Positions 1,806 to 19,561 of a DNA stretch of 33,418 bases are shown here, piece by piece. Below the pieces are notes generated by a model that worked only from the letters and a program-made list of their open reading frames with translations, ran no database searches and was not told the DNA's origin. Numbering within the stretch: the first letter of the stretch is position 1; each line of letters begins with the position of its first letter. The position numbers and the translations under genes were made by a program. The DNA comes from Methylocystis sp. (lineage in GTDB: Bacteria > Pseudomonadota > Alphaproteobacteria > Rhizobiales > Beijerinckiaceae), in NCBI GenBank assembly GCA_024506175.1, contig JAMBEQ010000039.1, forward strand, positions 1 to 33,418, given 5' to 3'.

Positions 1806-4358
1806 CGCCGCGGCGCCGAACTCGAGCTGGATGACGAAGCGTGAATCCTGCGTATGGATGACCTCGCCTTCGAGCTTGTCCGCCCATTCCACAGAAGGAG
1901 CGCCAACGGTCGCGGCGAGGTCCGCGGCGAAGGAAGCGACGAGGTTTCTCGCCTCCGACGGGGCGCTCTCGCCCGGCGCAACGCGAATCCACAGCAAGGG
2001 CGTCTTCAGCGAAACCTGACGGTCGCTCTTCGCCTTCCGCACCGCCGTGACGATGCCCACACAGGCCGCGCCCGCCTCTTCCGCCTCGGGCGAGGCAATT
2101 TGCTCGCTCGCTCTCGGCCAGTTCCCCCGCATGTGGATCGACGGCGCGCGCCCCGGGAAGACCGATTGATAGATGGTCTCGGCCATGTAAGGCAGGGTCG
2201 GCGCGAACAGGCGCAGCATGGTCTCTAGGCAATGCCACAGCGTGTAATGCGCAGACAGGCGATCCGCCTCGGCCCCGACATCCGAATAAGCGCGCGCCTT
2301 GGACAACTCCAGATAGTTGTCGCAAAAGTCGTCCCAGAAGAAGCGCTCGATCAGGTGAAGGGCGTCCGCATATTCGTATTTTTCATAGCAAAGCGCCGAC
2401 TGTTTCACCACTTCAGACAGGCGGGCCAGGATCCACCGGTCCAGAACGCAGACGATGCGGCCCTGCCCCACGTCCTCCTTCGCCGTCGCAGGCGCGCCGT
2501 CGAAATGCTGCAGCTGCAGGGCGACGAAGCGCGAAGCGTTCCATAGCTTGGTGGTCAGGCGCTTGCCGACCTTGAGGACATCCTCGGACAGAGCAGTGTC
2601 CAGGCCCAGCCGCGAGGTGGCGGTCCAGTAACGGACGACGTCCGCGCCGTAGCGTTCGAGCAGGCTCTCCGGCGTCACCACATTGCCCTTGGATTTGGAC
2701 ATTTTCGAGCGGTCGTGCGCGAGGCACCAGCCGCTGACCGTGATGTCCTTCCAGGGCGCGCAATTCTCGTGCAGATGCGACTTGACGATCGTGTAGAACG
2801 CCCAGGTGCGGATAATCTCATGGGCCTGCGGGCGCATGGTCGCGGGGAAGAGCTTTTCGTGCCGCGCCTGGTCGATCATGAAGCCGGGGGCGATGCCGCG
2901 GCTGTTGAGCTGCGGCGAGACCGAGCTCGTCGCCCAGGTGTCCATCACGTCCGGGTCCGGCTCGACCTCATCCGCCGAATAGCCGCGCGGCAAGTCCGTC
3001 AAAGGATTGACCGGCAGATCGTCGACATGGGCCACGAGCACCTTGCCCTCCTCGCCCGGCCGCTTCGAATACCAGAACGGGAAAGGCACGCCGAAATAGC
3101 GCTGGCGTGAAATGCACCAGTCCCATTTCAGATTTTCCACCCAGCGGTCGAAGCGGACCTGCATGTAGGGCGGATACCACTGGATTTCGGCGCCGCGCCC
3201 GAGCAGCTCCTGCTTCTTGTCGAGGACGCGGACGAACCACTGCGGCGTCACCAATATTTCGAGCGGCGCGCCGGAGCGCTCCGCCGACGGGACCATGCGG
3301 TTGACGGCGACGCTGCCGCGCACCACGCCTGCGGCGCTCAGCAGCTCTACGATTTTGGCGCGGGCGCCGTTGACCTTGAGCCCGGTTAGCTCGGCCGCCG
3401 CCGCGCGGGCGGAGTCGACGTCCAAAGACGGCCAATCGGGGCCGCCGATGCGGTCGAGCCCCGTGAGGCGGCCGCCTTTATCCAGGATGACGCGCGTGGG
3501 CAGCTTGTGGTCGCGCCACCATTCGATGTCGGTCGTATCGCCGAAGGTGCAGCACATCACGACGCCGGTTCCCTTCTCGGGGTCGGCGCGTTCGTCGGCG
3601 AGGATCGGCACGGGAACATTGAAAAGCGGAGAAACCGCCGTGCGGCTCAAAAGCTCGCCCGCCCGCGGATGCTCGGGATGGACAAGCAGCGCGCAGCAGG
3701 CGCCGAGAAGCTCAGGCCGGGTGGTGGAGATGATGACCTCGCCGCCGCCCCCGATCCCGAAGGCCAGGTCCCACATGGAGCTGGCGGTTTCCTTGTCGAC
3801 AACCTCAGCCTGGGCCAGAGCGGTACGGTCCGCCGGGTCCCATAAGGTCGGCTCCAATGTTCGATAGAGGTGCCCTTTGTTGAACAGATCCAGCGCCGAC
3901 ATCTGCGACAGCTTCATGCTGGTCGGGCTGATGGTCTGGTATTCCTGAACCCAATCCACGCTCAAGCCGATCGAGCGGAAAAGCGCCCGGAAATCTTCCT
4001 CGGCCTCCTGTGCGACCTCATGGCAGATGCGCACGAACTCCTCACGCGACATATCGGCCGCGCGGATCTTGCGCGTGGCTTCGACCAGCCGCTCGGTGGG
4101 CAGTCCATTATCGTCGAAGCCGATCGGGTAGAACACGTTGCGGCCGGCCATCCGCATGTAGCGCGCGGTGAGGTCCGTCTGCGTGTAGCTGTAGATGTGC
4201 CCCATATGCAGGTAGCCGGACACGGTCGGGGGCGGCGTGTCGATGATGTACGACTCAGCTTTGGGCGAAGAGTCGTCCCAAGCGTAAACGTTGAGGCGTT
4301 TCCACAATTCCCGACACTGTTCCTCGGAAATTTTGAAGTCGTAACGATCAGCGATCAT
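1803..4358 (-). CDS. valS: Valyl-tRNA synthetase, archaeal/rickettsial type
   Basis: An 851-residue class I aminoacyl-tRNA synthetase that charges tRNA-Val. The HIGH motif is PPPTVSGYLHMGH (HMGH at 51-54), followed by FYPIGFDDNGLPTER. An editing (CP1) domain spans roughly 200-360. WDWCISRQRYFGVPFP lies near 412 and the KMSKS loop DRSKMSKSKGN at about 549-559. An anticodon-binding domain follows to about 770. The sequence lacks the C-terminal coiled-coil arm of the usual 900-950-residue bacterial ValRS, and its motifs match the shorter archaeal/Rickettsia form. The start ATG 4358 has a GGAAAAAG purine tract before it. The stop lies in the first bases of repeat copy 2. Whether a standard ValRS also exists elsewhere in the genome cannot be seen. 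No T-box leader was found. Confidence 0.93.
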   Translation of the reverse strand: MIADRYDFKISEEQCRELWKRLNVYAWDDSSPKAESYIIDTPPPTVSGYLHMGHIYSYTQTDLTARYMRMAGRNVFYPIGFDDNGLPTERLVEATRKIRAADMSREEFVRICHEVAQEAEEDFRALFRSIGLSVDWVQEYQTISPTSMKLSQMSALDLFNKGHLYRTLEPTLWDPADRTALAQAEVVDKETASSMWDLAFGIGGGGEVIISTTRPELLGACCALLVHPEHPRAGELLSRTAVSPLFNVPVPILADERADPEKGTGVVMCCTFGDTTDIEWWRDHKLPTRVILDKGGRLTGLDRIGGPDWPSLDVDSARAAAAELTGLKVNGARAKIVELLSAAGVVRGSVAVNRMVPSAERSGAPLEILVTPQWFVRVLDKKQELLGRGAEIQWYPPYMQVRFDRWVENLKWDWCISRQRYFGVPFPFWYSKRPGEEGKVLVAHVDDLPVNPLTDLPRGYSADEVEPDPDVMDTWATSSVSPQLNSRGIAPGFMIDQARHEKLFPATMRPQAHEIIRTWAFYTIVKSHLHENCAPWKDITVSGWCLAHDRSKMSKSKGNVVTPESLLERYGADVVRYWTATSRLGLDTALSEDVLKVGKRLTTKLWNASRFVALQLQHFDGAPATAKEDVGQGRIVCVLDRWILARLSEVVKQSALCYEKYEYADALHLIERFFWDDFCDNYLELSKARAYSDVGAEADRLSAHYTLWHCLETMLRLFAPTLPYMAETIYQSVFPGRAPSIHMRGNWPRASEQIASPEAEEAGAACVGIVTAVRKAKSDRQVSLKTPLLWIRVAPGESAPSEARNLVASFAADLAATVGAPSVEWADKLEGEVIHTQDSRFVIQLEFGAAA

Positions 4359-9085: not shown

Positions 9086-9508
9086 ATGGTCATCGACGAC
9101 ATCATCGGCAATTTTGAGCTGCTCGACGAGTGGGAGGATCGCTACCGCTATCTCATCGAGCTCGGCCGCACGCTCGAACCGCTGCCGAAGGAGGCCTACA
9201 AGGAAGAAAACAAGGTGCGGGGCTGCGCCAGCCAGGTGTGGCTGGAGACGACGCGCGGCGAGGACGCCGCCGGCGCGCCGACTTTGACCTTCCGCGGCGA
9301 CAGCGACGCCCATATCGTGCGTGGCCTGGTGGCGCTGGTGCTGGCGCTCTACTCGGGGCGCCGGGCCCGGGAGATCATCGACACCGACGCCGCGCCGCTC
9401 TTCAAGCAGCTAGGCCTCGCCGAGCATTTGACGCCGCAGCGCGCCAATGGCCTGCGCTCCATGGTCGAGCGGATCAAGAAGGAAGCCCGCGACGCGGCGG
9501 CGGCGTAG
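9086..9508 (+). CDS. sufE: Cysteine desulfuration protein SufE
   Basis: A 140-residue SufE. It accepts persulfide sulfur from the cysteine desulfurase SufS and delivers it for iron-sulfur cluster assembly. MVIDDIIGNFELLDEWEDRY starts the fold. The acceptor cysteine is C47 in KVRGCASQVWL, and LGLAEHLTPQRANGL lies near the end. ATG 9086 is preferred over ATGs at 9038 and 9065 because AAGGAAA precedes it and it gives the standard family length. It is transcribed divergently from lemA. No other suf genes are in the window. Confidence 0.94.
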   Translation: MVIDDIIGNFELLDEWEDRYRYLIELGRTLEPLPKEAYKEENKVRGCASQVWLETTRGEDAAGAPTLTFRGDSDAHIVRGLVALVLALYSGRRAREIIDTDAAPLFKQLGLAEHLTPQRANGLRSMVERIKKEARDAAAA

Positions 9509-9524
9509 CAGTCGGTCCCCCGCC

Positions 9525-9731
9525 TCAAAAATCACTCGCGAGCCCTTTGACCTCCCAATCGCCATACCGCGCCGGATCGAGACCGCCTCGGCCGCCAATT
9601 TCTTCGGCCGCTCGCTGGCGCTCGACGCTCTTTCTGCGCGCCTCGGCTTCGGCGAGGGCGCGCCGCGCGGCCGGCGGCAGATCGTCCATCCTCCCGCCTG
9701 GCTTGGCTTCGAGTTTCTCATTCTCGGGCAT
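9525..9731 (-). CDS. DUF1674/SDHAF4-like protein
   Basis: A 68-residue protein with the family's C-terminal signature GGLDPARYGDWEVKGLASDF and a charged helical N-terminus (RALAEAEARRKSVERQRAAE). Eukaryotic SDHAF4 helps assemble succinate dehydrogenase by binding the flavinylated subunit; a like role in alphaproteobacteria is inferred from homology. GGGAG precedes ATG 9731. It sits between sufE (tail-to-tail) and rsmB (head-to-head). Confidence 0.85.
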   Translation of the reverse strand: MPENEKLEAKPGGRMDDLPPAARRALAEAEARRKSVERQRAAEEIGGRGGLDPARYGDWEVKGLASDF

Positions 9732-9809
9732 GTCGCGCTCCCGTAGCGTCTCGCCCCTTAGCTCCCCCTTGTGCTATGATTCGCGAGACGGGGGCAGCGG
9801 AGAGGCCGT

Positions 9810-11222
9810 TTGAGCGACAGTAGATCATTCCCCGGGCGTTCGAAAACCTCGCGTCAGTCCCCCCGCCAGGGTTTTGTGCCGGCAGAGGCGGCGCGCGAGG
9901 CCGAGGCGGCAAGAACCCCCGGGCTCCCGGCGCGTCTCGCCGCCGCCAGTATTATTGGGGACGTGGTCCAGGGCGGCCACCGGCTCGACGAATGTTTCGC
10001 GCCGCAAGCCGTGCCCAACCGCCTTACAGGTCTCGAGCCCCGCGACGTGGCGCTCGCCCGCTCGATCGCGACGGTCACGCTGCGCCGATTGGGCATCATC
10101 CGCCACGCGCTGGGCGAGCTGCTCGAAAAAGGCCTGCCACGCCAGGCCGGGCGGCTGGAATACACGCTGATCGCCGCCGCTGCGCAACTCCTTTTCCTCG
10201 ACGCCGCCGACCATGCGGCGATCGACCTCGCCGTGCGCGCGACAAAGCTCGAGCCGAAAACCAGCGCCTTTGCCGGCCTGGTGAACGGCGTGCTGCGGAA
10301 TCTCCTTCGCCGGCGCGACGAATTTCTGGAGATCGCCGCCAGCGGCGACTATGACGCGCCGCCCTGGCTCGCGCAGCGCTGGCGCAAGACCTATGGCGAC
10401 GACGCCGCGCGCGCGATCATTGCAGCGCACATGATGGAGCCGCCGCTCGACCTCTCTGTGAAAGCGGACCCTCAGGATTGGGCCGAGCGGCTGGACGGCG
10501 TTGTGACGCCCACTGGCTCCGTAAGGCTGAAGACGCGTGCGCCCATCGCGGAGCTTGCCGGTTACAAGGATGGCGAATGGTGGGTGCAGGACGCCGCCGC
10601 CGCTCTGCCCGCCCGGCTCCTTTCAGCAAAGCCCGACGAGCGCGTGCTCGACATGTGCGCGGCCCCGGGCGGCAAGACGGCGCAATTGGCGCTGGCCCGC
10701 GCCCATGTGGTGGCGCTCGACCGCTCGGCCGAACGGCTGAAGCTCTTGACCGCCAATCTCTCCCGGCTCGATCTTCGCGTGGATGTCGCGGTCGCCGACG
10801 CGACCGGCTATCAGGCGCCGCCCTTCGACGCCATTTTGATCGACGCGCCCTGCTCGGCGACCGGCACGGCGCGCAGGCACCCTGACGTGCCCTGGACTAA
10901 AAAGCCTGGCGACATAGAGACGCTCGCGGCGCTTCAGGCCAGAATGCTCGCCCGCGCGGCGCTGCTGACGAAAGCCGGCGGGCGCATTGTCTATTGCACC
11001 TGTTCGCTCGAGCCCGAGGAAGGCGAGCAGCAGATTGCGTCCTTTCTGCGCCGCAACCCCGACTTCCGCCGCGAGCCCATAAGAGTTGAAGAAGGCATAC
11101 CCTCCGAGTTCATCAACCGCGACGGCGACCTGCGCACGCTCCCCTGCTTCTGGCCCAACGAGGATTCGCGCCTGGCGGGAATCGACGGCTTTTTCGCGGC
11201 GCGATTGATCAGGCAAGAGTAG
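9810..11222 (+). CDS. rsmB: 16S rRNA (cytosine-C5) methyltransferase RsmB
   Basis: A 470-residue RsmB/Sun family enzyme that methylates a cytosine (C967 in E. coli numbering) of 16S rRNA using S-adenosylmethionine. Residues about 38-175 are the NusB-like RNA-binding domain (AAASIIGDVVQGGHRLDECF). The methyltransferase domain has the SAM motif DMCAAPGGKTAQLA, DAPCSATGTARRHPD with C348, and YCTCSLEPEEGE with C398. By family knowledge C398 is the likely nucleophile and C348 assists product release. The start appears to be TTG 9810 after AGAGG; the first 35 residues are variable, so a later start is possible. Confidence 0.94.
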   Translation: MSDSRSFPGRSKTSRQSPRQGFVPAEAAREAEAARTPGLPARLAAASIIGDVVQGGHRLDECFAPQAVPNRLTGLEPRDVALARSIATVTLRRLGIIRHALGELLEKGLPRQAGRLEYTLIAAAAQLLFLDAADHAAIDLAVRATKLEPKTSAFAGLVNGVLRNLLRRRDEFLEIAASGDYDAPPWLAQRWRKTYGDDAARAIIAAHMMEPPLDLSVKADPQDWAERLDGVVTPTGSVRLKTRAPIAELAGYKDGEWWVQDAAAALPARLLSAKPDERVLDMCAAPGGKTAQLALARAHVVALDRSAERLKLLTANLSRLDLRVDVAVADATGYQAPPFDAILIDAPCSATGTARRHPDVPWTKKPGDIETLAALQARMLARAALLTKAGGRIVYCTCSLEPEEGEQQIASFLRRNPDFRREPIRVEEGIPSEFINRDGDLRTLPCFWPNEDSRLAGIDGFFAARLIRQE

Positions 11223-11721: not shown

Positions 11722-11750
11722 ACCGTAGAGTTTTGGAAAAAGGACGAACC

Positions 11751-13715
11751 ATGACCGCAGCCGCTTGCGCCAATTACGCCCCGCCTGCAGATGCGCTCGA
11801 AAAAAGCATCCAGAGCGCCAAGAATGCGCTTCTCGACCTCGGCAAAGCGGACGGCCATTGGTGTTTCGAGCTCGAGGCCGATACGACGATCCCTGCCGAA
11901 TATGTGCTGATGCGTCACTTCCGCGCCGAGCCTGTCGAGGCTGAGCTCGAGCGCAAGATCGTGGTTTATCTCCGACGCATGCAGGGCGACCATGGCGGCT
12001 GGCCGCTCTTTCAGGATGGGGCCCTCAACATCTCGGCGAGCGTGAAGGCCTATTTCGCGCTCAAAATGATCGGTGACGACATCGACGCCCCGCATATGGC
12101 CCGCGCCCGCGAAGCGATCCTCTCCCATGGCGGCGCGGCGACGTCGAATGTCTTCACGCGCTCGTTGCTTGCGCTCTACGGCGAAATCCCCTGGCGCGGG
12201 GTGCCGGTGATGCCGGTCGAGATCATGCTGCTGCCGAGGTGGTTTCCCTTCCATCTCGACAAGATTTCCTACTGGGGCCGCACGGTCCTCGTGCCGCTTC
12301 TCGTGCTGATGACCTATAAGCCGCGCGCCAGGAACCCAAAGGGCGTGCATATACCGGAACTCTTTACGACGCCGCCGGAAGAGGTGAAGGTCTGGCCGAA
12401 GGGCGAGCATCAAACCTGGCCCTGGGCGCATATTTTCGGCGAGATCGACAAGCTGCTGCGCCTCGCCGAACCCTACATGCCCAAGCGTTCGCGGGAATAT
12501 TCGATAAAGCTCGCCGAGCGCTGGACAACCGAGCGTTTGAACGGCGTCGATGGGCTCGGCGCCATCTTCCCGGCCATGGTCAACAGCCTGCTGATGTACG
12601 ACGTGCTCGGCGTCCCTGAGACCGACCGGCGCGTGAAGGATGCGCGCGAATCGATCGAGCGGCTCCTCGTCGTCAATGAGACTGAAGCCTATTGCCAACC
12701 CTGCGTCTCGCCCGTGTGGGACACCTCGCTCGTCGCCCATGCTCTGCTCGAGACCGGCGACGACGACGCCCGTGAGAAGGCGCGCGCCGCCTGCGATTGG
12801 CTCGCCCCGCTGCAAGTGTTGGACGTGCAGGGCGACTGGGCGGCTCAACGCCCAAATCTACGGCCGGGCGGCTGGGCGTTCCAATACGCCAACGCCCATT
12901 ACCCCGATGTCGACGACACGGCCGTGGTCGCGACGGCCATGGACCGGCTGACCAGCGGCGAAGAGGGGAAGCCGTACGCCGAACGCATCGCCCGCGCGAA
13001 GGAGTGGATCGTGGGCATGCAGTCGAAGAACGGCGGGTGGGGCGCCTTCGACGCCGATAACGTCTACCACTACCTCAACCACATTCCGTTCGCGGACCAC
13101 GGCGCCCTGCTCGATCCGCCCACGGTGGACGTTTCGGCGCGTTGCGTCTCCATGCTCGCGCAGCTCGGCGATACGGTGGAATCGAGCGAATGCCTTCGGC
13201 GCGGCGTCGAATATCTCTTGAAGGAGCAGGAGAAGGACGGCTCCTGGTTCGGCCGCTGGGGCGCCAATTACATCTATGGCGCCTGGTCGGCGCTCTGCGC
13301 GCTCAACGCCGCCGGCCTGCCGCACGAGCATGAGTCCTATCGCCGCGCCGTGAATTGGCTCGTCTCGATTCAGAACCCGGACGGCGGCTGGGGGGAAGAT
13401 CTGTCGAGCTACAAGCTCGACTACAGGGGCTATGAGCAGGCGCCCTCGACCTCATCGCAGACTGCCTGGGCGCTGCTGGGGCTGATGGCCGCGGGCGACG
13501 TCGATCATCCGGCGGTCGCGCGCGGGGTCGCCTATCTGCAGACGACGCAGGGCCAGGATGGGCTTTGGGAAGAGGCGCGCTTCACGGCGACCGGGTTCCC
13601 GCGCGTCTTCTATCTGCGCTACCACGGCTACCGGAGATTCTTCCCGCTCTGGGCGCTCGCGCGCTACCGCAACCTACTGCAGACGAACAGCAAGCGGGTG
13701 CAGGTGGGGTTGTAA
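11751..13715 (+). CDS. shc: Squalene-hopene cyclase
   Basis: A 654-residue class II terpene cyclase that folds squalene into hopene/hopanol, the core of hopanoid membrane lipids. The catalytic acid motif is DVDD at residues 386-389 (YPDVDDTAVV). QW repeats are present: QGDHGGWPLF, QSKNGGWGAF, QEKDGSWFGRW, QNPDGGWGE and QGQDGLWEE. GYRRFFPLWALARYRN ends the fold. The enzyme is a monotopic inner-membrane protein. ATG 11751 is preferred over TTG 11733 because AAGGA lies 6 nt upstream. hpnG follows after a 381-bp gap with a repeat; squalene synthesis genes (hpnCDE) are not in the window. Confidence 0.97.
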   Translation: MTAAACANYAPPADALEKSIQSAKNALLDLGKADGHWCFELEADTTIPAEYVLMRHFRAEPVEAELERKIVVYLRRMQGDHGGWPLFQDGALNISASVKAYFALKMIGDDIDAPHMARAREAILSHGGAATSNVFTRSLLALYGEIPWRGVPVMPVEIMLLPRWFPFHLDKISYWGRTVLVPLLVLMTYKPRARNPKGVHIPELFTTPPEEVKVWPKGEHQTWPWAHIFGEIDKLLRLAEPYMPKRSREYSIKLAERWTTERLNGVDGLGAIFPAMVNSLLMYDVLGVPETDRRVKDARESIERLLVVNETEAYCQPCVSPVWDTSLVAHALLETGDDDAREKARAACDWLAPLQVLDVQGDWAAQRPNLRPGGWAFQYANAHYPDVDDTAVVATAMDRLTSGEEGKPYAERIARAKEWIVGMQSKNGGWGAFDADNVYHYLNHIPFADHGALLDPPTVDVSARCVSMLAQLGDTVESSECLRRGVEYLLKEQEKDGSWFGRWGANYIYGAWSALCALNAAGLPHEHESYRRAVNWLVSIQNPDGGWGEDLSSYKLDYRGYEQAPSTSSQTAWALLGLMAAGDVDHPAVARGVAYLQTTQGQDGLWEEARFTATGFPRVFYLRYHGYRRFFPLWALARYRNLLQTNSKRVQVGL

Positions 13716-13898
13716 GGCGCTTTCCCCGGTAATCTCGGTTCGTCCGCTTCCTCCCCTGGCCCCGCGACAGCGGGGTCGGGCGGGGCCCAACGGCGAACAC
13801 GCCAAAGATTGTCGACCCACATCCCCGCCCCTCCCCTCAAGGCGCGGGCGAGAGACGGCCAACGCTGTGGATCGCTTCCTTTACGCCTGTCGCTGCCC
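13716..13898. other. shc-hpnG gap, GC-rich hairpin
   Basis: No gene is visible. CCCCGC-GACA-GCGGGG (13760-13775) and the alternative longer pairing GGCCCCGC/GCGGGGCC (13758-13787) form strong stem-loops 45-70 bp after the shc stop. There is no T-run, so this is at best a weak terminator or attenuator between shc and hpnG. Repeat copy 3 follows. Confidence 0.4.
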
Positions 13899-14014
13899 TT
13901 CGCGCGCTTTCCGCTCGCATGGAATCATGCGAGCGATAAGAAATCGCGCAAAATCTAAGATCTCAACGCATTCTTATCGCAAGAGTCTGTCAGCTTTTGC
14001 GGAATGCGCTCTAG
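13899..14014 (-). repeat. 115-bp TIR repeat element, copy 3
   Basis: Minus orientation. It starts (minus strand) CTAGAGCGCATTCCGC near 14014 and ends GCGAGCGGAAAGCGCGC near 13902; the terminal CTAG on that side is lost. Both internal hairpins are kept (GCATTC/GAATGC and CTCGCATG/CATGCGAG). It lies in the shc-hpnG gap, 82 bp before hpnG. Confidence 0.85.
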
Positions 14015-14096
14015 CCCCTGCCCGCTTCCCTGTTTACCGTTGACTTCGCCTTCCGAAACATTGGAGGTAGATGGCGGTTGGTAGCAGGGAGGCGCT

Positions 14097-14831
14097 ATGA
14101 CGCTCGTTCAGAGCCGACGCAGGGAAGCGGTCAGGTGGGAAGCGCCTGGTCCCGTGCTTGTCGTCACCGGCATGAAGCGCGAGGCCGCCTGCGTCGCGGG
14201 CGAAGGCGTTGTCGCCATCTGCAGCGGCGCGAGCGTGACGAGGTTGCGCGCAGAGCTCGGCCGGCTCCAGGAAAAGCGTTTCTCCGCGGTCGTGAGCTTT
14301 GGCCTCGCCGGCGGGCTCGATTACGCCCTGCGTCCGGGCGACATTATCGTTGCGGATACGGTCGTTTCCGCGAAAGCGCGACACGAGACGCATGGCCGCC
14401 TCTCCGACGCACTGGCCGAAGCTGCAGCCGCCAAAGGCTGCAGGGCTGTGCCGGGCGCAATCGTAGGCGTCGACGCGCCCGCGTTGGATACAAAAACCAA
14501 GGCCTCGCTGCGCGAATCGGCGGGGGCGCACGCGGTCGACATGGAGTCACATCTCGCGGCCGAGTTCGCCCGCTCGCGCGCCCTGCCCTTCGTGGCGCTG
14601 CGCGCCATCAGCGATCCTGCCGCCCGCGCCCTGCCGCCGCTCGCCGCCAAGGCGCTGACGCCGGAGGGCGGCGTGGATGGAAAATACGTGGCGCGCGAAC
14701 TTCTCCGCGCGCCGCAGCAAATCGGCGAGTTGCTTCTGGCGGGAATCGATTCCCGCGCGGCATTCGGCTCTTTAGGCCGCTGTGGACCGCTTCTCGGCCC
14801 GCTCGCGCGCCTCATGCTCGCGGATCTCTGA
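14097..14831 (+). CDS. hpnG: Hopanoid phosphorylase/nucleosidase HpnG
   Basis: A 244-residue protein of the purine-nucleoside phosphorylase fold. Features are PVLVVTGMKREAACV at the start, VSFGLAGGLDYALRPGDII, and AHAVDMESHLAAEFA with the conserved Met-Glu of the nucleoside pocket, then LPFVALRAISDPA. In hopanoid producers it removes adenine from adenosylhopane to give ribosylhopane on the way to bacteriohopanetetrol. GGGAGG precedes ATG 14097. Its last 60 bp overlap the end of hpnH on the opposite strand. Confidence 0.92.
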   Translation: MTLVQSRRREAVRWEAPGPVLVVTGMKREAACVAGEGVVAICSGASVTRLRAELGRLQEKRFSAVVSFGLAGGLDYALRPGDIIVADTVVSAKARHETHGRLSDALAEAAAAKGCRAVPGAIVGVDAPALDTKTKASLRESAGAHAVDMESHLAAEFARSRALPFVALRAISDPAARALPPLAAKALTPEGGVDGKYVARELLRAPQQIGELLLAGIDSRAAFGSLGRCGPLLGPLARLMLADL

Positions 14832-15923
14832 GAGCCGGGCGACGTTCTCGTCATAGACATATTCGGCCGGGCGCTGGTTCTCGAGCGAAATGTCAGCCGC
14901 CATAGGGCCGTCGGTGCGCACGCCGAAAAGCGCCACGGCGGCCGCCTTCCATGGGCGCTTCACAGTGTCGGCGACGGCGCTGGGCTCGAAGCCCGAATGC
15001 ACCATGCAGTCGGCGCATTTCTCGTAATTGCCGACGCCATAAGCGTCCCAATTCGTCTCTTCCATCAGCTGCTTGAAGGTCGGCACATAGCCTTCGCCGA
15101 GAAGATAGCAGGGACGCTGCCAGCCGAAGACGGTACGCAGCGGATTGCCCCAGGGCGTGCAGGCGTAGCTCTCATTGCCAGCCAGGAAGTTCATGAACAG
15201 GCCGGACTGCTGGAACTGCCAAGCACGCCCGCCGCGGCCGCGGCGCAGAATGTCTCTAAACAGCTCCTTGGTCTTCTGGCGGTTCAGGAAGTGGGTCTGG
15301 TCGGGCGCGCGCTCATAGGCGTAGCCGGGCGAAACCGTCATGCCGTCGACGCCGAGCGCCGTCGTCTCGTCGAGGAACTTCGCCACCAGCGCCGGATCGG
15401 CGTCGGCGAAGAAGGTGCTGTTCGTCGTGACGCGAAAGCCTTTGGATTTGGCGAGCTTGATCGCCTCGACCGCGCGCTCGTAGACGCCCTCCTGGCTCAC
15501 GGCGCGGTCGTGCATTTCCTTGTCGCCGTCGAGATGGATCGACCAGGTAAAATAGGGCGAGGGCTTGTACTGGTCTATTTTCTTGGCGAGCAGCAGCGCG
15601 TTGGTGCAGACGATGGCGAATTTGCCACGCTTCGTGATGCCTTCGACGATCTGCGGCAGATCCTTGTGCAGCAGCGGCTCGCCGCCGGCGATGACCGCGA
15701 CGGGCGCGCCGCATTCCTCGACGGAGGCCAGGCATTCCTCGACCGAAAGCCGCTTGTTCAGAATATGGTCGGGATAGTCGATCTTGCCGCAGCCCGAGCA
15801 GGCGAGATTGCACCGGAAGAGGGGCTCGAGCATCAAGACGAGCGGATAGCGCTTTCTGCCCAAAAGATGCTGCTTGACGATATAAGCGCCGATCTTCGCA
15901 ACATAACGAAAAGGTATGGACAC
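14772..15923 (-). CDS. hpnH: Radical SAM adenosylhopane synthase HpnH
   Basis: A 383-residue radical SAM enzyme that joins the 5'-deoxyadenosyl group to hopene (diploptene), the first step of hopanoid side-chain formation. The 4Fe-4S motif CNLACSGC places cysteines at 38, 42 and 45; VIAGGEPLLH is the GGE segment. A C-terminal cysteine set (ACTPWG, QRPCYLL, KCADCMVHSGFEPSA) fits HpnH. The likely start is GTG 15923, behind AGGAAC; the upstream in-frame extension looks non-native. hpnG and hpnH usually lie in the same direction; here they converge and overlap by 60 bp. Confidence 0.95.
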   Translation of the reverse strand: MSIPFRYVAKIGAYIVKQHLLGRKRYPLVLMLEPLFRCNLACSGCGKIDYPDHILNKRLSVEECLASVEECGAPVAVIAGGEPLLHKDLPQIVEGITKRGKFAIVCTNALLLAKKIDQYKPSPYFTWSIHLDGDKEMHDRAVSQEGVYERAVEAIKLAKSKGFRVTTNSTFFADADPALVAKFLDETTALGVDGMTVSPGYAYERAPDQTHFLNRQKTKELFRDILRRGRGGRAWQFQQSGLFMNFLAGNESYACTPWGNPLRTVFGWQRPCYLLGEGYVPTFKQLMEETNWDAYGVGNYEKCADCMVHSGFEPSAVADTVKRPWKAAAVALFGVRTDGPMAADISLENQRPAEYVYDENVARLSEIREHEARERAEKRSTAA

Positions 15924-16205
15924 GGCTTGTTCCTGCTGTGGTGCGCGAACCTTCAAGGGGCCGCGAGACAAGAGGCGCCGGCGCGCATCCTGCCGCGATC
16001 GTCGCGCCGGTCTGGCCGTCTAGCACGAAAAGGCGGAAGAGGAAAACCCGTCCCGCCCTGGCGCTCCGGCCAGCGGCAGCCCCAGATTCCGGGCTACCCG
16101 ATCGACCTCCCAAGCCGCAGGCCGATTGCTTTGTATCCGGCTTGCCAAGCAGCAAAAATAGGTCTCAATTCCATCGCAACAAGCATTGCGGTGTGGGGGG
16201 ACTCA
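15924..16205. other. Gap upstream of hpnH, nothing identified
   Basis: This is the divergent gap between hpnH (minus) and the 736-residue protein gene (plus). It must carry the hpnH promoter, but no convincing boxes, RNA or reading frame were found. Repeat copy 4 fills its right end. Confidence 0.4.
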
Positions 16206-16335: not shown

Positions 16336-18546
16336 ATGACAGTTGCGAGCCCGCCCGCCAGGCCGGCCGAAATCCAGGCTCCGCGCCGCTTCGCCGCGCT
16401 CAACGCGCTCTCCGCGCCGCTCAGGCGCTTCTGGGCGGGAGAGATAGACCTCGGCCGCATCGGAATGGCGGTGACTCTCCCCGTCCTCGCCTGGGTATTT
16501 TACACCACGTCCTCGGGCATGATCGACATCATGCAGAAGGAGCAGGGCGATGTGGTGGGCGTCGCGGGCACGCTTGTCGCCACCACAGCCGTGCTGGTGA
16601 TGCTAGCCTCGACCTCGTGGTCGCTGGGCGCCGATCTCGCGGCGCTGATCGCCCGCCGCCGCATGGCGCGCGAGCGCATGGTGGTGAAAACGCTCGTCAC
16701 TGCGGCTGTGTTCGGTTTTGTCTTCTCGATCTCGGCGTTTTTCTCTTTTACTTATTACTACAATAACATATTCAAACTTTCCTCCCGCAAGATCGCCGCC
16801 GAGCTGCAGCCCATGGAGCTTGCGGCTGAGGTCGTTCTGCCGGCGACGAAACAGATTGGCGCCGCCTATGAAGCCCAGTCGGCGAAGATTGTGGCCGATC
16901 CCGCGTTCAAGGGCTATCTGGATTCGCTCGATGGGCTGATCGACACGGCGCGGACCGCGGGCCCTGCCTTGCGCGAGGCGATTCGCAAGGGCCAGGAGGC
17001 CCAGCAAGCGACGCTGGCGAAAGCGGCGCAGCAGGCGGCGGCTGAGCTGGAAAGCGCCGAGGCGGCGGGTCGCCAATATGACGAGACCCGCGCGGAAATC
17101 GAAACAATCGAAAAAAATGTCGAGAATCTCGATCAGATCATAAAATCCAAGCAGGAAGAGATGGCCGCGCTCGGGGTGAAGGCGCGGCAGGAGGAGCAGC
17201 TCGCCGTCGACGCCGAGCACGGGCTGGATAATAAAGGCGCCGTTTGCGGGCCGAATTGCCATGCGCATCGACTCAAGGCCGAGGAAGCAAGTCGTCGCGC
17301 TACAGCCATCCGCCAGACGCTCGCGGGCCCCATGGCCGAGCGCGCCGCCGCGTTGAAGAAACGCGAGACGCTCGCCGGTCAGGCGGTTTCGTACAAACAC
17401 AAGGCCGAGCTCGCAGGCGCCGCCGCCAAGCGCCCGATGCCAAAAGCGGAAGCGTCCGTCGATTTCGACGCTGCGCTGCGCGACCTCACGGCGCTGCGCG
17501 ATCAGCTTCGCGTGGAGCCGACATGGGCGCGCGTCCATGAGGCCAAGCCGCTCTGCGAGCCGATCTTCGCCGCCGCGCGCCAGTCCAGCGCTCTGCCCGC
17601 CAATGTGGCCCAGGACTTCGCTTGCGAGCCGCAGGGCGAGGCGCGCGATCTGCTCTCGGCGCGCGACGAGGCGATCGCCGCCCGCGCGAGCTTCGACAAG
17701 AAATGCGGGCTGGAGACCGGGCTGCGGGACGAGCTGAGCGCGATCGTCGTCAAGATTCGCGCCGCCCCGAGCTCGGACAAAACGGCCGCCGCCGATGGCT
17801 TCAACGCGGCGAAGGGCCTCGTCGACGCCTGCGTCGTCGCCGGCAAGGCGGTCGGCCTCAGCGAAGACAAGGTGCGCGAACTGCTGAAGAAGAGCGACGA
17901 ATACGTCCGCGCGCATTCCAGCGAGCGCAACAAATTCGAGCTGGCTCGGGAAGCGTTCTGGAGCTTTACGCCGGATTCGACCATGGCGATCTGCGTGGCC
18001 ATGGCGCAGGACGCTTTCCTTTTCATCATGAAATTCCTCTCGGAAATCTTCAAACGCGGCTTCGAGGCGCGCGAGCGGCGCCAGTTCATGACGCCGATGG
18101 ATCTAACGGACGACGAGGAGGAGCCCGCCGAGATCCGCGCCATGAAGGCCATGCTGCGCACCGCCAAGCCCTTGCGCGGCGATATGAGCGCCATCGACCC
18201 ACAAGACCCGGCGCTGCGAACGCTTCCGCAAAATGTGCAGGACAATCTCATCGCCACTCTCAACCGCCTGGTGCGCGACGAGATCGCCCATGTCGACCGG
18301 AAGGGCGCCTATGTCGTTGACAACGTCACCGTCTCGCAAGTCGAGTCGCGCCTCTTCGCAGCGATCAAGCCGAGGGCCCGCGCCGCACGCTATGGGCTCG
18401 AGGGCTTAGCGGCGAGCGGCGGGCCGCGAGGCTTTTATAGCGACGCCGTGCTCGCCAATGCGCGGCGCCGCCGACCATCGGCGCTCGAGCGGTATCTGAC
18501 CTCGGAAGCCGAGCGGAGCGAGCAGAAAGGCGCGCCGCCGGCTTAA
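16336..18546 (+). CDS. Unrecognised four-TM coiled-coil protein with periplasmic Cys
   Basis: A 736-residue protein, family not recognised. ATG 16336 follows AGGAGGAG at 16319-16326. Membrane segments lie at about 42-60, 73-95, 117-140 and 546-568. The basic stretches before TM1 and between TM2 and TM3 (IARRRMARERMVVK) put those parts in the cytoplasm, so residues 141-545 should be periplasmic. That domain is mostly Ala/Glu/Lys-rich helix with coiled-coil character (about 210-290 and 310-365). It contains six cysteines (304, 308, 407, 430, 457, 499), against none in the cytoplasmic parts; the first two form CGPNCHAHR. The C-terminal 165 residues are charged and cytoplasmic, with an acidic patch (TDDEEEPAE). 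It is followed by an L,D-transpeptidase gene, so an envelope role is a reasonable guess. The length and good ribosome-binding site support a real gene. Confidence 0.85.
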   Translation: MTVASPPARPAEIQAPRRFAALNALSAPLRRFWAGEIDLGRIGMAVTLPVLAWVFYTTSSGMIDIMQKEQGDVVGVAGTLVATTAVLVMLASTSWSLGADLAALIARRRMARERMVVKTLVTAAVFGFVFSISAFFSFTYYYNNIFKLSSRKIAAELQPMELAAEVVLPATKQIGAAYEAQSAKIVADPAFKGYLDSLDGLIDTARTAGPALREAIRKGQEAQQATLAKAAQQAAAELESAEAAGRQYDETRAEIETIEKNVENLDQIIKSKQEEMAALGVKARQEEQLAVDAEHGLDNKGAVCGPNCHAHRLKAEEASRRATAIRQTLAGPMAERAAALKKRETLAGQAVSYKHKAELAGAAAKRPMPKAEASVDFDAALRDLTALRDQLRVEPTWARVHEAKPLCEPIFAAARQSSALPANVAQDFACEPQGEARDLLSARDEAIAARASFDKKCGLETGLRDELSAIVVKIRAAPSSDKTAAADGFNAAKGLVDACVVAGKAVGLSEDKVRELLKKSDEYVRAHSSERNKFELAREAFWSFTPDSTMAICVAMAQDAFLFIMKFLSEIFKRGFEARERRQFMTPMDLTDDEEEPAEIRAMKAMLRTAKPLRGDMSAIDPQDPALRTLPQNVQDNLIATLNRLVRDEIAHVDRKGAYVVDNVTVSQVESRLFAAIKPRARAARYGLEGLAASGGPRGFYSDAVLANARRRRPSALERYLTSEAERSEQKGAPPA

Positions 18547-18675
18547 CTCGTCCAGCCAAGTTGGACGCGGCCCGACTGGGCCATATGAAAATTGGCTTCC
18601 AGGCGGGCGGCTCCTTGCCTGCTTGCGCGGGGGCGTCGGCGTCCAAAGCGTGTTTTGCCTGCGTGGGAGGCTCCC

Positions 18676-19089
18676 TTGCGCCTTTTGACCTTGCTCCTCG
18701 CCCTGCCCCTTGCCGCCGCGCCTGAAGCGGCGCGGGCCGCCGTGCACGTGCATATCGATCTCGCGAGCCAGCGGATGCATGTGACGTCATCCTACGGAAG
18801 CTATAGCTGGCTGGTCTCGACGGCGCGGCGCGGCTACCGGACCCCACAGGGAAGCTTCTCCGCCAAGTCGCTGCAGCTCATGCATTACTCCAAGAAATAC
18901 GACGACGCGCCCATGCCGCATTCCATTTTCTTTGCCGGCGGCTACGCCATCCACGGCACTTATCAGACCCATTCCCTGGGGCGCCCAGCGTCGCATGGCT
19001 GCGTGCGCCTTTCGCCGGGCCATGCGGCGGCGCTTTATGACATGGTGCGGCGGGAGGGAGCGCTGATCTCAATCAGCGCTGGCCGATAG
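18676..19089 (+). CDS. L,D-transpeptidase (YkuD fold)
   Basis: A 137-residue exported enzyme of the YkuD family, which forms 3-3 peptidoglycan crosslinks or attaches proteins to peptidoglycan. The active site is HGTYQTHSLGRPASHGCVRL, with H93, H107 and nucleophile C109. The N-terminal signal is LRLLTLLLALPLAAAPEAAR followed by A-A. The start is best read as TTG 18676, since GGGAGG lies 5 nt upstream and the signal peptide begins right there; the longer frame to 18592 has no such site. It is a minimal single-domain enzyme without LysM or PG-binding domains. It lies 129 bp after the large membrane-protein gene. Confidence 0.9.
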   Translation: MRLLTLLLALPLAAAPEAARAAVHVHIDLASQRMHVTSSYGSYSWLVSTARRGYRTPQGSFSAKSLQLMHYSKKYDDAPMPHSIFFAGGYAIHGTYQTHSLGRPASHGCVRLSPGHAAALYDMVRREGALISISAGR

Positions 19090-19180
19090 GGAAGGCCCCG
19101 CAGGGCGCGCCGTGTCTTTCTTCTTGTGTTGATAGGGAACGGCGGCCACTATGTCGCAAAAGCATAAGAGGGAGGAGATC

Positions 19181-19561
19181 GTGAAGAAATTTATTTGGGC
19201 GGCGGCGGCCGTCCTGGCCTTGAGCGGCCCCGCCTTAGCTGGCACTTGGCTCGTCACCGAGGAAAACATTGGCGGCGTCAAGGGCGCCCAGGGCTCCTGG
19301 ACCGTCAAGACGGAAGGGAACAAGATCAACGGCGACGCCTCGATGCAATTGGATAATGGCGCCATGCTGACCTACAAGCTCGACGGCTCGGTCGAGGGCG
19401 TCAACTACACTGTCACAATGACAAACCGCTCCGATGGCAAGAAGAACTGCGTGTGGAAGGGGCATCCGCCGGCCGGCAGCGGCACGCAGAGCCAGGGCCT
19501 GATCGGCTACGCCGAATGCGACGGCGCAAAGCTGATCGTGCGCGCGAGCATCGTGCAGTAA
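19181..19561 (+). CDS. Small secreted hypothetical protein
   Basis: A 126-residue protein of no recognised family. GTG 19181 is chosen because GGAGGA lies 5 nt upstream and gives a clean signal peptide (KKFIWAAAAVLALSGPALA, cut after residue 20). The mature 106 residues are rich in beta-type sequence (GTWLVTEENIGGVKGAQGSW, YKLDGSVEGVNYTVTMTN) with two cysteines, NCVWKG and AECDG, that could form a disulfide. The pattern suggests a small periplasmic beta-barrel or sandwich. It runs in the same direction as the L,D-transpeptidase, 91 bp downstream. Confidence 0.75.
   Translation: MKKFIWAAAAVLALSGPALAGTWLVTEENIGGVKGAQGSWTVKTEGNKINGDASMQLDNGAMLTYKLDGSVEGVNYTVTMTNRSDGKKNCVWKGHPPAGSGTQSQGLIGYAECDGAKLIVRASIVQ

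Follow-up and report, generated by a model that had tools for sequence, protein, structure and literature searches.

In the published excerpts of Kaur et al. (2020, PMC7159879), which describe GTPase-centric systems, the GAP1 gene typically follows that of a DO-GTPase, and transmembrane (TM) components occur in 67% of the systems. DO-GTPase proteins are predicted to act in membrane-related stress, as stated in an excerpt of a second study (PMC11237479). The present study concerns BIG, a 736-residue coiled-coil protein with four predicted TM segments, and its comparison with these systems. BIG is encoded on a contig of Methylocystis sp. (GenBank JAMBEQ010000039.1, positions 1 to 33,418; this whole stretch of 33,418 nucleotides is hereafter called the window). 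As judged from gene order and profile searches across genomes, BIG is linked to the gene of a P-loop NTPase, c1, and to a second gene, c5, or, in another branch, c23; furthermore, c1 co-occurs with BIG. We tentatively regard BIG as the membrane-spanning, periplasm-sensing component of a small NTPase-switch system in Methylocystis and some Methylosinus, and consider this function possible rather than probable.

Linkage of BIG to c1, c5, and c23, and co-occurrence with c1

We compared 81 BIG loci (the window, L001-L053, and L056-L082). The 60-residue fragment L082 was dropped and the remaining loci were collapsed by sequence to 40 distinct loci, some of which had short flanks (1.5 kb on each side in groups 11 and 14; groups 28, 32, 33, and 37 were also cut). 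In 34 of the 40 loci, c1 and/or c5 lay within approximately 3.5 kb (between midpoints) downstream of BIG, c1 being linked in 31 and c5 in 27; Methylocystis rosea SV97 (L069) is one strain that carries the linked genes. They are encoded on the strand opposite to BIG, except in groups 2, 13, and 14, in which the block is inverted and the linkage is kept. A BIG-c1-c23 block was present in L051 (genome G149), L078, and Methylosinus sp. Ce-a6 (L053/L080; c1 in L053 was located by tblastn at 9434-10387). The surroundings of L051, L053, and L078 have no other clustered gene in common, and the linkage of BIG to c1 is also found in the hpn setting of most Methylocystis.

BIG was matched in 37 of 39 genomes of the Methylocystis-containing genus of the window, including all 30 of good quality; the match in G178 of this genus is a fragment. 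In the family sample, BIG was detected in 8 of 149 genomes, from the genera g1 and g42 only; g42 was taken as Methylosinus, in which BIG is patchy. A profile search of 398 phylum and 297 order genomes returned G000 and G017 only, with at most two or three candidates scored per genome, such that distant relatives may be missed. A contig scan, which needs an exact peptide pattern, yielded 27 loci; all relatives with a genus name were Methylocystis or Methylosinus, and some loci were named to family, class, or order.

A c1 profile, run on the 149 family genomes in the same setting as the BIG search, matched the same eight genomes (G000, G017, G057, G089, G114, G135, G128, and G146). BIG and c1 are non-adjacent and both present in G000, G089, and G146. 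In the genome of the window, c1 (L181: 1638-2627) lies on another contig, C70, together with c5, which ends at 3466 and has an uncertain start; G146 carries c1 and c23 together away from its BIG locus, L052. One extra stretch (L184) of G167, a close relative of the window, held neither c1 nor c5. The family sample included 11 pmoA-positive genomes, four of which (G042, G078, G105, and G126) lack BIG, and the c1 profile had no match in these four. By plain counting, with kinship ignored, the chance of a perfect match between BIG and c1 within the 11 genomes is 1 in 330. Because the genomes are related, the evidence is weaker than this number; the independent contrast lies within g42 (two of five pmoA-positive genomes) and in G126.

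Linkage of this type may also arise without a shared function. BIG may serve as a structural protein of the envelope and be functionally unconnected to c1 or c5; the linkage would then be inherited gene order, and the shared presence would reflect a small number of gains or losses of a region. Most of the linkage falls within one genus of otherwise conserved order (hpn upstream, and c7 and c6 beyond c1), and BIG is mostly convergent with c1 and c5 and forms no operon with them, as this explanation would have it. However, the linkage of BIG to c1 recurs in several settings that are unrelated to one another, and three of the sampled genomes have kept c1 although it is unlinked from BIG there. 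We consider a purely structural role to be somewhat unlikely.

c1 has approximately 325 residues, among which a P-loop (GPxxxGK) and a DxxG motif are invariant. Among 12 members, weak matches were obtained to AAA_25 (seven members, best E 0.017), DO-GTPase2 (PF19993; four, best E 0.028, below the cut-off), MMR_HSR1 (three), and AAA_16 (two, best E 2.8e-4). c1 is therefore referred to here as a putative P-loop NTPase; since AAA profiles match at least as well as DO-GTPase2, the matches do not show it to be a GTPase. c5 has approximately 270 residues, and 3 of 15 members matched Pfam GAP1-N2 (PF20013; best E 2.7e-4). The best of these matches (L038) aligned residues 23-147 with profile positions 4-128 of 139 and scored 21.4 against a 24-bit cut-off. 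A profile search of the 15 members yielded no other recurring family. c23 (approximately 670 residues) had no significant match in family and PDB searches. c5 and c23 were rejected as homologues of each other, since hhalign showed no similarity.

Predicted architecture of BIG

BIG is a true gene by the criterion of sequence conservation, because homologues at 49-84% identity stay open over most of the length. The exceptions, L033 (G180) and G159:C132, each contain one in-frame TAA within the match, which may be due to assembly error or decay. A promoter scan found none, and terminator-like sites numbered 6 versus 3.7 expected.

Hydropathy and loop charge predict a topology with both termini in the cytoplasm and approximately 405 residues in the periplasm; the loop at residues 101-119 is strongly positive (6+/1-). 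An earlier, sequence-only reading of the window had proposed four TM segments and approximately 400 periplasmic residues, which fits this prediction. It had also placed six Cys residues in the protein, all of them periplasmic. Six Cys residues (304, 308, 407, 430, 457, and 499) are invariant across 20 aligned homologues and lie on the predicted periplasmic side, whereas a seventh, Cys553, is inside TM4 and variable. The same reading had the chain return to the cytoplasm with a charged tail; the return agrees with the predicted topology, but the tail is predicted to contain a folded winged-helix-like domain. The features are summarized in Table 1.

Table 1. Features of BIG and of adjacent genes, with positions in the window.
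Feature	Position	Strand	Basis or remark
BIG, 736-aa four-TM coiled-coil protein	16336..18546	+	ORF from ATG 16336
TM1, about residues 44-63	16465..16524	+	Hydropathy; conserved FYTTSSGMIDIM region
TM2, about residues 75-99	16558..16632	+	Hydropathy
TM3, about residues 117-141	16684..16758	+	Hydropathy; positive loop 101-119 precedes TM3
Long helical hairpin, about residues 171-364, predicted periplasmic	16846..17427	+	AlphaFold2 model
Hairpin tip, invariant C304/C308 (CGPNC in window)	17221..17271	+	Alignment; 10/17 positions invariant
Helical region carrying invariant Cys 407, 430, 457, and 499, predicted periplasmic	17440..17919	+	Alignment, AlphaFold2, hydropathy
TM4, about residues 548-572	17977..18051	+	Hydropathy; most conserved segment of BIG together with juxtamembrane stretch
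Winged-helix-like cytoplasmic domain (predicted), about residues 598-682	18127..18381	+	AlphaFold2, Foldseek, VIA
YkuD L,D-transpeptidase (LDT)	18592..19089	+	Adjoins BIG only in the clade of the window; outside conserved association
Secreted two-Cys protein (SEC)	19151..19561	+	Adjoins BIG only in the clade of the window; outside conserved association
hpnH (adenosyl-hopene transferase)	14772..15971	-	TIGR03470; setting only, outside proposed system

The AlphaFold2 model of whole BIG (20 sequences; mean pLDDT 71.8, pTM 0.41) contains hairpin helices at approximately residues 150-294 and 306-364 with the C304/C308 pair at the tip, followed by the helical region that bears the remaining Cys residues, by TM4, and by the cytoplasmic domain. 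Residues 592-690 folded alone reached a pLDDT of 82. A Foldseek search of the PDB with the C-terminal domain returned a best E of 0.041 (TMq 0.44) and no match at E <= 0.001, and the scores of the VIA alignment were middling (best Z 7.8, rmsd 4.5, 90 aligned). The PDB folds matched by the domain were mostly CRP, MarR, and PadR-type regulators, which we take to be winged-helix proteins, plus some ribosomal proteins. In the PDB, the whole model matched diverse proteins with long helices (best Z 13.3, rmsd 23.0), and the viral structure library gave one match at E <= 0.001, which is unnamed (TMq 0.15). Mean pairwise identity was 0.88 in the juxtamembrane/TM4 segment (529-575) and 0.80 in TM1-3, with lower values in the coiled-coil helices (0.61 and 0.62); it was 0.65 in the winged-helix-like domain.

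The family had not been recognized in the sequence-only reading, and no Pfam or NCBIfam profile matched BIG over its cut-off in our search. The weak profile matches fall on the coiled coil, are far below cut-offs, or have no known function. We rejected NF045487 (E 5e-4, but 18.8 against a 300-bit cut-off) and phrog_15002 (a weak match only, E 1.4e-4); AAA_13 matched 9 of 20 members, a sign of coiled-coil noise. PDB sequence searches with BIG, c1, c5, c23, and the C-terminal domain of BIG gave a best E of 0.17 or worse, and nothing better than 0.27 for BIG.

DUF4407 (PF14362) was matched by 7 of 20 BIG members under the cut-off (best E 3.2e-5). When eight members were scanned singly, there were two matches (20.8 and 17.4 against 31.3 bits), in the coiled coil only, and the genome of the window had no DUF4407 match. 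Such sub-cut-off matches are common: at E <= 0.001, 25 of the 101 order genomes searched had one, without any reaching the cut-off, and 2 of 14 control genomes matched as well. An hhalign comparison of BIG with five divergent DUF4407-like proteins, for which the alignment was thin and poor, gave a probability of 4.8% over 33 columns. Three DUF4407-like proteins (L103, L104, and L105) resemble BIG by eye, in that hydrophobic segments near the N-terminus are followed by a coiled coil and then by a further hydrophobic segment; the two BIG matches to DUF4407 that were located lie in the coiled coil and not in TM regions. The assignment of BIG to DUF4407 was not established, with all matches sub-cut-off and the two located ones in the coiled coil. 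L103 and L106 (G317:C201) contain three neighboring ORFs of 448, 352, and 465 residues, two of which are over the DUF4407 cut-off. A Rhodococcus plasmid, which was typed as conjugative, encodes a DUF4407-annotated protein (L108 2917-5403) with a C-terminal part matching Ser/Thr kinases; the gene of this protein sits between NYN-domain and PP2C genes.

Neighbors of BIG in the window

The sequence-only reading had described BIG, LDT, and SEC as three ORFs in the same direction, which we confirmed, and had joined them in an envelope module. LDT is a minimal L,D-transpeptidase, as that reading had it: it belongs to the YkuD family (PF03734; 61.4 against a 23.4-bit cut-off, E 1.8e-16) and carries HG...SHGCVR at residue 121, presumably the YkuD L,D-transpeptidase motif HG...SHGCxR. 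However, LDT is one of six family matches in the genome of the window, which also has two SEC matches, and it is not a conserved partner of BIG. Of the 40 distinct loci, 4 have LDT and SEC next to BIG, namely the window and its three closest relatives. In G154, the two genes form a pair (G154:C1:3601854-3602792) at approximately 1.85 Mb from BIG. Because of this restricted adjacency, the multicopy nature of both families, and the pair elsewhere in G154, the position of LDT next to BIG looks like a recent rearrangement. The pairing in G154 away from BIG suggests that LDT and SEC may themselves be linked.

These data bear on the proposal that BIG is a periplasm-spanning scaffold which, with LDT and SEC, shapes the envelope or intracytoplasmic membranes (ICM). 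The predicted topology and the adjacency in the window and its closest relatives are in keeping with a scaffold. The module already fails on gene conservation, since free variation of the neighboring genes among relatives had been named as the observation that would count against it. Predicted hairpins directly 3' of the stop codon of BIG (-35.6 kcal/mol for a stretch of 69 nt, computed without a shuffle control) also speak against the proposal. Regarding methane oxidation, 4 of the 11 pmoA-positive genomes lack BIG, and G057 has BIG with no pmoA seen; the suggested role in ICM of methanotrophs is weakened by this spread, and the data do not support a role of BIG in methane oxidation or in ICM. 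The function and biogenesis of ICM are stated as not known in an excerpt of PMC9445010. We regard the scaffold proposal as very improbable. Since c1 and c5 are unlinked from BIG in this genome and located on C70, the genes beside BIG in the window are bystanders.

On the other side of BIG, hpnH is the divergent upstream neighbor in 33 of 40 loci. The region preceding BIG in the window (11733-15971) contains hpnG and hpnH, over the TIGR03468 and TIGR03470 cut-offs, respectively, and a 660-residue ORF at 11733 that we take to be hpnF. The gene c8 (approximately 200 residues; presumably a PAP2-like protein) immediately precedes BIG at the Methylosinus loci L052 (9444-10037) and L079 (7038-7631) and lies several kb downstream of BIG in many Methylocystis loci; its cluster comprises 25 ORFs.

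Comparison with GTPase-centric systems and a possible role

As in the GTPase-centric systems described in the excerpts of PMC7159879, a P-loop NTPase gene stands upstream of a GAP1-N2-like gene and is linked to a multi-TM protein. In L045, L181, and L185, c1 immediately precedes c5 in the same orientation, which places the GAP1-like gene downstream of the NTPase gene. The differences are as follows. The profile matches of c1 and c5 are under their cut-offs; c5 is short, with no GAP1-M or GAP1-C match found; no FNIII match was obtained among 10 scanned proteins of BIG neighborhoods; and the excerpts of PMC7159879 describe no BIG-type component. Because both profile tests, GAP1-N2 for c5 and DO-GTPase2 for c1, fall under the cut-offs, we suggest that BIG, c1, and c5 may work like GTPase-centric systems and do not claim membership.

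The same likeness raises the possibility of a biological-conflict device directed against phages or competitors, comparable to the GTPase-centric systems that Kaur et al. describe. The occurrence of a GAP1-N2-like c5 beside a P-loop NTPase and a membrane protein, in the layout given in the excerpts of PMC7159879, is compatible with such a device. However, BIG is near-universal and conserved in its genus, unlike the variable GTPase-centric systems and their effectors. Moreover, BIG, c1, and c23 had no match in plasmids, and no BIG was confirmed in viral contigs by a pattern-limited scan. A conflict function is, in our estimation, unlikely.

In the NTPase-switch reading, the periplasmic helical hairpin and the Cys-rich helical region would sense an envelope condition, which may be redox, mechanical, or wall-derived. 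The signal would be relayed by the juxtamembrane/TM4 segment, which is highly conserved, and would reach the winged-helix-like domain in the cytoplasm; this domain may recruit or regulate c1. c5 or c23 would act as a co-regulator of c1, and the NTPase state of c1 would set the output.

Several observations weigh against this reading. Besides the mostly convergent arrangement of BIG and c5/c1, without a single operon, two Methylosinus loci (L052 and L079) have no c1 or c5 nearby, and the window and its three closest relatives show no linkage of BIG to these genes. Much of the co-occurrence of BIG and c1 is shared ancestry inside one genus. The DO-GTPase2 match of c1 covers the P-loop only and is below the 27-bit cut-off (in the members whose matches were seen), and the better or equal fit of c1 to AAA profiles and the sub-cut-off match of c5 to GAP1-N2 point in the same direction. 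In addition, the winged-helix-like domain is no better conserved than the remaining soluble part of BIG.

We found no description of BIG in excerpts of the literature on DUF4407, GAP1-N2, GTPase and coiled-coil proteins of Methylocystis, and ICM scaffolds of methanotrophs. BIG may represent a new class of transmembrane receptor in which a presumably disulfide-bonded periplasmic helical hairpin is coupled to a P-loop NTPase dedicated to it and to a regulator resembling GAP1. Together they would form an envelope-sensing switch of Alphaproteobacteria that is near-universal in Methylocystis and absent from the literature found. We hold this view to be doubtful.

The present results indicate that the gene neighbors in a single window mislead about the partners of BIG. 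The family link between the BIG system and GTPase/GAP1 systems is provisional; if it holds, the BIG system would widen the range of such systems to a use that is conserved and not variable. Methylocystis and Methylosinus play an important part in methane consumption, and BIG, an unnamed and near-universal membrane protein with a dedicated NTPase tied to it, may offer a concrete route to envelope monitoring in these bacteria.

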